Source of the DNA: Vineibacter terrae | GTDB taxonomy: Bacteria; Pseudomonadota; Alphaproteobacteria; Reyranellales; Reyranellaceae | DNA length: 36,174 bases | Direction of reading: 5' to 3' | Assembly (NCBI RefSeq): GCF_008039615.1 | Contig: NZ_VDUZ01000075.1 | Location: forward strand, 1-36,174 | Translations under genes and position numbers: made by a program | Notes under the pieces: model-generated | Database searches by the model: none | The model's input: the letters and a program-made list of their open reading frames with translations, nothing else | What the model was told of the DNA's origin: nothing | Part shown: positions 24,364 to 25,954 of the stretch, in pieces | How the letters are laid out: every line of letters starts with the position of its first letter | How positions within the stretch are numbered: position 1 is the first letter of the stretch

Positions 24364-24711
24364 ATGCAGGCCGTGAAGGACGCCAGCCATCTCTACGAAG
24401 TCGAGCGCCGGGCACGCCATGCCGAGCGGCCGGGCTTTCGCATCAGCGAGCTGCAGATCAGCCCGACGCAGAAGGTGCCGTGGCACTACCACACCCACAT
24501 CGCCGATACCTTCTATGTGCTGGAGGGTCGGATCCGGGTCTTCCTGCAGGACCCCAAGGAGGACGTGCGGCTGGGCCCCGGCGAGACCTGCACCGCCCGC
24601 CCGGGACGGCCGCACCTCGTCGTCAATGACGGCGATCGCTCGGCCACCTTCCTGGTCCTGCAGGGTGTGGGCGACTACGACTTCGTGCCGCTGGTGCCGG
24701 CGGGCCGCTGA
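24364..24711 (+). CDS. Cupin domain protein
   Basis: A 115-residue single-domain cupin. The first cupin motif gives metal ligands in WHYHTHIADTFYVLEG (H41/H43/H45, E54). The second motif is GRPHLVVNDG (H84). It probably binds a divalent metal in a small beta-barrel and could be an enzyme or a ligand sensor. The ATG at 24364 has GGGAGG nine bases upstream. The frame is open far upstream in the shadow of the GYD gene, which I ignore. Confidence 0.88.
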   Translation: MQAVKDASHLYEVERRARHAERPGFRISELQISPTQKVPWHYHTHIADTFYVLEGRIRVFLQDPKEDVRLGPGETCTARPGRPHLVVNDGDRSATFLVLQGVGDYDFVPLVPAGR

Positions 24712-24880
24712 CGCAAGCGGTCACGTGACGGGATGGGCGCTGGCCTGCAGCCGGCGTATCTTGGACTCGCGCCAGGCCGCCGGCGCGGTTTCACGATTGC
24801 GTGCGAGACATGTCGGCCATGCACCCTGCCGGCCGGGCATGGTAGTCCTCGCGGGTCGATTTTTCCGACGGGAGGGGATG

Positions 24881-25954
24881 ATGGTCATCGTGCTCGGTCA
24901 ATCGGGTGAGCATGCCGTCGCGCCGGCCGAAGGCCTGTGGCTTACGGCCGCCGATGCGCAGCGTGTCACGGGCTGGACGCCCAAGCCGGAAGGCATGTGC
25001 TGCGACGATTCCTGCGTGCCACTGCCGGCCGGCGCCACGCGTCCGGGCCATGTCGATGTCGCTGCCTTCTGGCAGTTTCTGGGCAACCCCGTGCTGCACG
25101 ACGATGCCGGCGAGACCTGGGTGTTGGGCGTCGGCGCCGAGGCCCGCAACACGCAGCTGGCGGGCCTGGAAGCGCCGGACTTCACGCTGCCCGACCTCGA
25201 CGGCGTGCCGCACACGCTCTCGGCGCTGCGCGGCCGCAAGGTGTTCCTGACCACCTGGGCCAGCTGGTGAGGCTGCCGTCTCGACTTGCCCGTGTGGCAG
25301 TTACTGTATGACGAGCTGAAGGACCGCAGCTTCATGGTCGTGGCCGTGGCCGAGGACAGCCGCGGCACGGAGCAGGCGCGCCAATGGATCGAGCAGGCGA
25401 AGACCGCCTACTGGTGCCTGATCGACGCCGACCATTGCGTCGCCGACCTCTACGGCATGGTCAATGTGCCGCAGGCGGTATGGATCGATGAGGCCGGCCG
25501 CGTCGTGCGTCCCGCCGAGACGGCGGGATCGACCGACCATTTCCGCCGCATGGACCTGGCGACGCGCACCATGGCGCCCGAGGATCAGGCGGCACGGCTG
25601 GCGGCGCGCACCGCCTATCTCGGGGCGGTCAAGGACTGGGTGCTGACAGGCAGGCATGCGTTGGCCACGGACGATGCCCGTCGCAAGCAGCCGCGGATCA
25701 CGACGGAAATCGCGCAGGCCCATGCCCATTTCCGGCTCGGCACATGGCTGCGGGCGCATGGCAAGCCGGAGGAGGCCGACCGCCACCTGGCCGAGGCCAG
25801 CCGGCTCCATCCCGACTCGTGGAACATGTGGCGGCAGGCCGCCGATCTCGACGCTGTCGGCAAGGCCGGCGGTCCGGAGTTCTGGGCCCGGGTCAAGGCG
25901 TTGGGTGATCGGCCTTACTACCCGCCACCCGACCTGCCGGGGTTCGGACGCTAG
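24881..25954 (+). CDS. Redoxin (AhpC/TSA-TlpA-like) with in-frame UGA, candidate selenoprotein
   Basis: The coding frame runs from ATG 24881 (GGGAGGGG just upstream; ATG 24878 is also possible) to TAG 25954, with one TGA at 25268-25270. Read as selenocysteine it gives 357 residues with Sec130. Layout: an N-terminal region with CCDDSC (C40, C41, C45); a redoxin domain opening APDFTLPDLDG; the active site WASW-U-GC-R; PVWQLLYDELKDRSFMVVAVAEDS; VPQAVWIDEAG; then a helical, TPR-like tail (HLAEASRLHPDSWNMWRQAADL). Cysteine homologues, as I recall them, read WASWCGCR, so TGA replaces exactly the redox cysteine. A SECIS-like hairpin follows at 25283-25302. The alternative is a nonsense pseudogene, but the 228 downstream codons show no decay. 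Function: thiol or peroxide redox chemistry, inferred. Confidence 0.82.
25283..25302 (+). promoter_or_regulatory. Candidate bacterial SECIS hairpin
   Basis: Starting 13 nt after the UGA, G-A-C pairs with G-U-U (one G.U), one U of 25286-25287 bulges, and UGCC pairs with GGCA around a five-base loop CGUGU (25291-25295). The loop starts 21 nt after the UGA, and its second and third bases are GU. In E. coli fdhF, SelB recognises a bulged U and a loop GU in a near-identical UUGC/GCA hairpin. The match in layout is seen; function is inference. Confidence 0.65.

Follow-up and report, generated by a model that had tools for sequence, protein, structure and literature searches.

A UGA-containing, ResA-like redoxin gene of Vineibacter terrae very probably belongs to an already described kind of UGC-motif selenoprotein

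The gene, its reading frame and its domains

The window analyzed here is the whole stretch of 36,174 nucleotides of Vineibacter terrae DNA (contig NZ_VDUZ01000075.1). Its forward strand carries a gene with a thioredoxin-type domain, whose frame is broken only by a TGA at codon 130. The features discussed below, with the evidence for each, are:

24881 to 25954, + strand: probable selenoprotein gene, 357 residues with selenocysteine (Sec) at 130, then a TAG stop
24998 to 25015, + strand: N-terminal Cys40-Cys45 pair, CX4C, within KPEGMCCDDSCVP (nearly invariant among relatives)
25163 to 25507, + strand: AhpC-TSA/ResA-like thioredoxin-type domain, residues 95-209 (PF00578 and solved-structure matches)
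25268 to 25270, + strand: UGA, very probably read as Sec130, first residue of a U-G-C motif with Cys132 as partner (recurrence in relatives)
25286 to 25300, + strand: candidate bacterial SECIS apical hairpin, stem UUGCC/GGCAG, loop CGUGU (synonymous freeze and pair counts)
25718 to 25849, + strand: TPR-like C-terminal helices, residues about 280-323 (TPR_14, 21.1 bits, below the cut-off of 23.5)

We infer that the gene starts at the ATG at 24881, which has GGAGG a few bases 5' of it; the ATG at 24878 is an alternative. The site itself reads WASW-TGA-GCRLDLPVW, and 3' of it the frame runs on for 227 sense codons and the TAG, in agreement with a first-pass annotation of this DNA, which had described a single frame with 228 codons (stop included) beyond the TGA. 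The same frame is also open upstream, back to 24419 (24419-25270, + strand; 154 codons before the start without a stop), and this stretch overlaps, out of frame, a gene that looks by eye like a cupin; the upstream opening is probably an effect of high GC content.

With the TGA read through, PF00578 (AhpC-TSA) matches as one whole domain at 63.8 bits (cut-off 26). The part before the TGA gives on its own a Redoxin/AhpC-TSA match below the Pfam cut-off, and the part after it scores 30.2 bits for AhpC-TSA against the cut-off of 26. Solved structures matching the thioredoxin-type domain include ResA, TlpA and related proteins (E down to 1.4e-14). The redoxin domain proposed in the first-pass annotation is thus confirmed and its TPR-like tail is matched only below cut-off, whereas the proposed CCDDSC region does not hold as a unit: the conserved element is CX4C, with C40 and C45 both among the positions conserved in at least 90% of 29 aligned rows, and residue 41 is mostly Arg in the same alignment.

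The flanks offer no common context, in that no conserved operon was found within up to 3 kb on either side of 11 loci (L085-L095). Genes for NAPRT, the cupin-like protein and NadE are all kept only in the same-genus locus L085, and L090 retains NAPRT together with DAHP synthase.

Recurrence of the TGA and selection around it

We read the site in relatives with a motif script that permitted any letter at the position in question. Among 102 loci, which include places fetched twice, it returned 100 motif matches (90 of them distinct), and the codon was TGA in 100 of 100. The two loci without a script match are L082, which by eye reads YASW-TGA-GC and brings the sites read to 101, and L058, a weak homologue only (E 2.9e-9). 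A separate search of 101 related genomes, the genome of the window included, gave 67 matches with E no higher than 1e-50, of which 66 span residue 130 and all 66 carry the TGA in frame; the remaining match (G017:C124) starts past the site. Relatives with the TGA reach down to 36% identity. They include an 83% identical gene on a contig of Reyranella sp. CPCC 100927 and genes in metagenome-assembled genomes labelled Rhodopila, Caenispirillum and others. UGC redoxins occur in every one of the 61 genomes sampled from the window's own taxonomic family and are scattered in the class; the match in G049 is L056 alone, which is 43% identical and belongs to another subfamily.

A lone TGA in one genome would look just the same if an ordinary redoxin gene had suffered a nonsense mutation (leaving a pseudogene) or if a base had been called wrongly. 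The same TGA is nevertheless present in every other relative read, in separate genomes, and a sequencing error is very unlikely because the codon recurs in these independent genomes. A TGA that stands at the same column in all relatives read goes well beyond chance, in line with the first-pass annotation, which had argued against a random hit on this codon. Recurrence at the same column led us to reject a pseudogene or sequencing error, which we regard as exceedingly improbable. The refuting outcome named in that annotation, TGC at this site in close strains, did not occur: related species carry TGA and not TGC.

Selection on the sequence bears on the same question. Six same-genus gene pairs gave dN/dS values of 0.10-0.18 after the TGA and 0.12-0.26 over the 100 codons that precede it. 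These values show that the C-terminal part is translated and subject to selection, which also speaks against a decayed or misread gene. At the synonymous level, codons +6 to +8 are nearly frozen across 89 distinct genes: Leu is encoded by TTG or CTG only (87/87), Pro by CCC (78/79) and Val by GTG (88/89), with pairwise identities of 0.73-0.98 against the 0.31-0.40 expected from codon usage. Skewed codon choice is also seen outside the hairpin (Pro at -20 is CCG in 59/60 and Ser at +30 is AGC in 65/69), because many of the 89 rows belong to one genus, and for this same reason we picked 28 representatives over lineages for the structural analysis below.

Several genomes carry two UGC proteins, as seen at L055 (G011:C16), L057 (G032:C111), L061/L084 (G151) and L062/L082 (G183). 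In G151 and G183 these are one WAPYUGC protein and one protein of another subfamily, with TGA at every site.

Cysteine forms of the family were sought in four kinds of sample and were not found in any of them (class, phylum, contigs and plasmids). When the family alignment was run against a class sample of 385 genomes, with at most five candidates scored per genome, 25 matches scored at least 234 bits, all with the in-frame TGA, followed by a gap down to matches of 77 bits and lower. We opened eight of the lower-scoring loci; seven contained a motif, in each case an ordinary CxxC, and one contained none. With an E limit of 1e-25, a phylum sample of 398 genomes yielded two matches, each with TGA (the genome of the window and one other of its family). 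A scan of contigs that detects close relatives only, and whose patterns leave out the U-G-C site, returned 11 loci, each of them with TGA, and among the 89 plasmid records with a match none covered 80% of the query. Given the limits of these searches, the absence of Cys forms holds for these samples only. One plasmid locus (L127, Streptomyces sp. NBC_00536 plasmid NZ_CP107820.1, 14922-15396) is an unannotated, decayed remnant that resembles the C-terminal part of the family and lacks the active site; it hints that UGC redoxins once reached Actinomycetota.

Selenocysteine genes and a candidate SECIS hairpin

The genome contains the full set of genes for selenocysteine insertion that the first-pass annotation had proposed to look for (selA, selB, selC and selD). 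The tRNA-Sec gene (selC) scores 75.3 bits against a gathering cut-off of 47 and has the anticodon TCA according to ARAGORN. It adjoins selB, which is over its cut-off, and selA (574.9 bits, cut-off 267.9) and FdhE lie directly upstream of this pair. The selD gene is likewise over cut-off, about 10 kb from the other sel genes. The Rfam tRNA-Sec model also picks up tRNA-Ser genes, and a second match just above cut-off (47.7 bits) was set aside as tRNA-Ser on the ARAGORN result (three loci run). One further feature lies outside the window:

G000 contig C5, L126:10436-12667, - strand: SelD with an N-terminal pyridine nucleotide-disulfide oxidoreductase domain (TIGR03169 431.5 bits, selD 266.9 bits)

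This fused SelD was considered as a Sec form and rejected, its frame being without an in-frame TGA.

Across the class sample, the UGC redoxin family is present in 22 of 385 genomes (E up to 1e-30) and selB in 55 (E up to 1e-60; 54 over cut-off). All 22 family-positive genomes have selB, against 55/385 overall, although the sampled genomes are mutually related. Among 14 well-known control genomes, selB is over cut-off in two and the NCBIfam model NF041054 (see below) in none.

Two other ways of reading the codon were considered. If the TGA were a real stop, or were read through at a low level, the main product would end at Trp129, and suppression that inserts Trp or Cys, or else an internal start, would supply the remainder; a TTG at 25286 does open an ORF of 222 residues, and the hairpin described below is weak in bare RNA. 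The family's presence nevertheless tracks selB, neither TAA nor TAG occurs at any of the 101 sites read, and a thioredoxin-type domain severed at its active site would not be expected to function; we consider this reading very unlikely. Among the 14 likely genes picked in the window, TGA is the usual stop (10 of 14), which contradicts a change of code throughout the organism with UGA as a sense codon; selC with its TCA anticodon accounts for the site, and a code change is left with a vanishingly small probability.

Downstream of the UGA, the conserved codons coincide with a candidate SECIS hairpin with stem pairs at +16-20/+26-30 and a UGA-to-loop distance of 20 nt. The 28 representatives retain some kinship (L059 and L090 are both in G004, L061 and L084 both in G151, L067 and L080 share genus g85, and L030 and L055 share genus g5). 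All five stem pairs are kept in 26 of them, against a mean of 10.0 and a maximum of 17 in 500 synonymous-codon shuffles. The outer pair is U-G in 12, C-G in 13 and U-A in one; in two representatives G faces A and the pair is broken. L083 and L084 keep four of the five pairs. The loop is CGUGU in 27 representatives and AGUUU in one.

A published bacterial SECIS model, as given in the accessible part of its source, specifies a loop of 3-9 nt with G in the first two loop positions, a stem of 4-16 bp, 16-37 nt from UGA to loop and a minimum free energy no higher than -7.5 kcal/mol (PMC13188914). The stem defined by conservation fits this model in its loop (CGUGU), G position, 5-bp stem and 20-nt spacing. 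As to energy, the 23-nt segment from the window folds at -6.0 kcal/mol against the limit of -7.5, with three inner pairs only and the outer ones shifted, and longer stretches fold below -7.5 kcal/mol, but as other structures. None of the three minimum-energy folds computed for bare RNA of the window contains the hairpin, and these folds show no unusual stability (z of -0.05, 0.75 and -1.38). In the window gene, the hairpin has a pair probability of 0.01 when +1..+60 is folded and of 0.94 with +10..+45 (the first nine bases omitted), and this probability varies widely over the 30 genes tried. The case for the hairpin as a putative SECIS therefore rests on conservation, not on energy. No Rfam model matched in the window at gathering thresholds, which we do not count against a SECIS because these elements vary greatly.

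Proposed activity and relation to known proteins

Taken together, the conserved TGA, the conserved coding sequence downstream, the constrained hairpin and the complete set of Sec genes support the selenocysteine reading put forward in the first-pass annotation, and the TGA at 25268-25270 is real and very probably a Sec codon. We put at roughly 95% the probability that this is a gene for a thioredoxin-type oxidoreductase, probably located in the cytoplasm, and that SelB and tRNA-Sec, aided by the hairpin just downstream, decode its UGA as Sec, the attacking residue of a U-G-C center. As predicted from sequence, the protein would act as a thiol/selenol oxidoreductase or peroxidase. Sec130 would attack a disulfide or peroxide and then form a selenenylsulfide with Cys132, the counterpart of the second Cys of the ResA CxxC with one intervening residue removed; this bond would be re-reduced, perhaps by way of the conserved Cys40/Cys45 pair.

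The best NCBIfam match is NF041054.1, 'ResA-like WAxxUGC motif-containing protein' (WAxxUGC_long), over profile positions 9-352 of 354 (E 8.9e-88). Its motif, WAxx-UGA-GC, is present here as WASW-TGA-GC. All 29 aligned relatives match this model with E of at most 1e-10; ResA is the other model to match all 29 (best E 5.1e-22). Because the score, with Sec entered as Cys, is 294.9 bits and the cut-off is 300, the protein falls 5 bits short and is not filed as a formal equivalog, whereas its same-genus orthologue in G003 (81% identical) passes at 309.7 bits. In the class sample, 6 of 385 genomes pass. The top scorers have WAPYUGC (L061, 493.6 bits; L062, 485.9 bits) where the window protein has WASWUGC. 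In the tree, the WAPYUGC group (L056, L061 and L062) and a third group (L083 and L084) stand apart with 100/100 support each, in a topology in which 16 of 26 inner branches are below 80. The window protein is thus an edge or sister member, placed at the margin of the wider UGC-containing kind. Ordinary gene calling would truncate such genes at the UGA, and this one additionally falls just below the cut-off for naming.

The first-pass annotation had known of no description of this redoxin type as a selenoprotein. That claim to novelty does not survive, because NF041054 and published UGC-containing Prx-like and TlpA entries describe the kind; the window protein is not a new kind of selenoprotein and adds to one already described. 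The available portions of three sources contain such entries: a 2008 survey by Zhang and Gladyshev has a 'Prx-like (UGC-containing)' selenoprotein family with pfam00578, its UGC group comprising 46 Sec sequences in 15 samples (PMC2398784); a 2022 review lists a 'UGC-containing Prx-like protein' (PMC9312934); and a 2026 review lists a 'UGC-containing TlpA disulfide reductase family protein' (PMC13188914). These proteins share with ours the U-G-C motif and a pfam00578 or TlpA-group domain. That the published groups are of the window protein's kind rests on these descriptions of motif and domain, the tested link being the one to NCBIfam. A search of literature holding few subscription papers returned no paper on WAxxUGC, NF041054 or the selenoprotein UGC motif; the titles and abstract openings of work on selenoproteins and Reyranella contained nothing bearing on a UGC redoxin; and PMC5029168 makes no mention of UGC, TlpA, redoxin or thiol-disulfide.

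The available part of the 2008 survey also counts 855 Cys homologues of its UGC group (PMC2398784), against none found in our samples of the window protein's family. It may be that Cys forms exist outside these samples, or that the survey counted more loosely. The lack of Cys forms is the one point here that may go beyond current knowledge: a tentative and rather doubtful extension is that the family is effectively Sec-only, an oxidoreductase with a UxC center and a second, conserved CX4C center that does not tolerate Cys in place of Sec, so that divergent subfamilies retain both Sec and a 15-nt hairpin of almost unchanged sequence to 36% identity. With no Cys forms in our samples and its UxC geometry, the family is a reasonable subject for the question of why some enzymes need selenium.

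Compared with ResA and TlpA, the window protein has in common a thioredoxin-type domain (near residues 92-212, matched by a ResA at E 1e-13) and an invariant N-x-P, which we take to be the cis-Pro loop. Aligned to ResA-type chains, U130 falls on the first active-site Cys, as the first-pass annotation had placed it, and C132 on the second; the CxxC of ResA and TlpA is thus replaced by U-G-C, with one residue deleted. The window protein differs from them further in having an N-terminal CX4C region and a TPR-like tail, and in showing, by eye, neither a signal peptide nor a membrane anchor.
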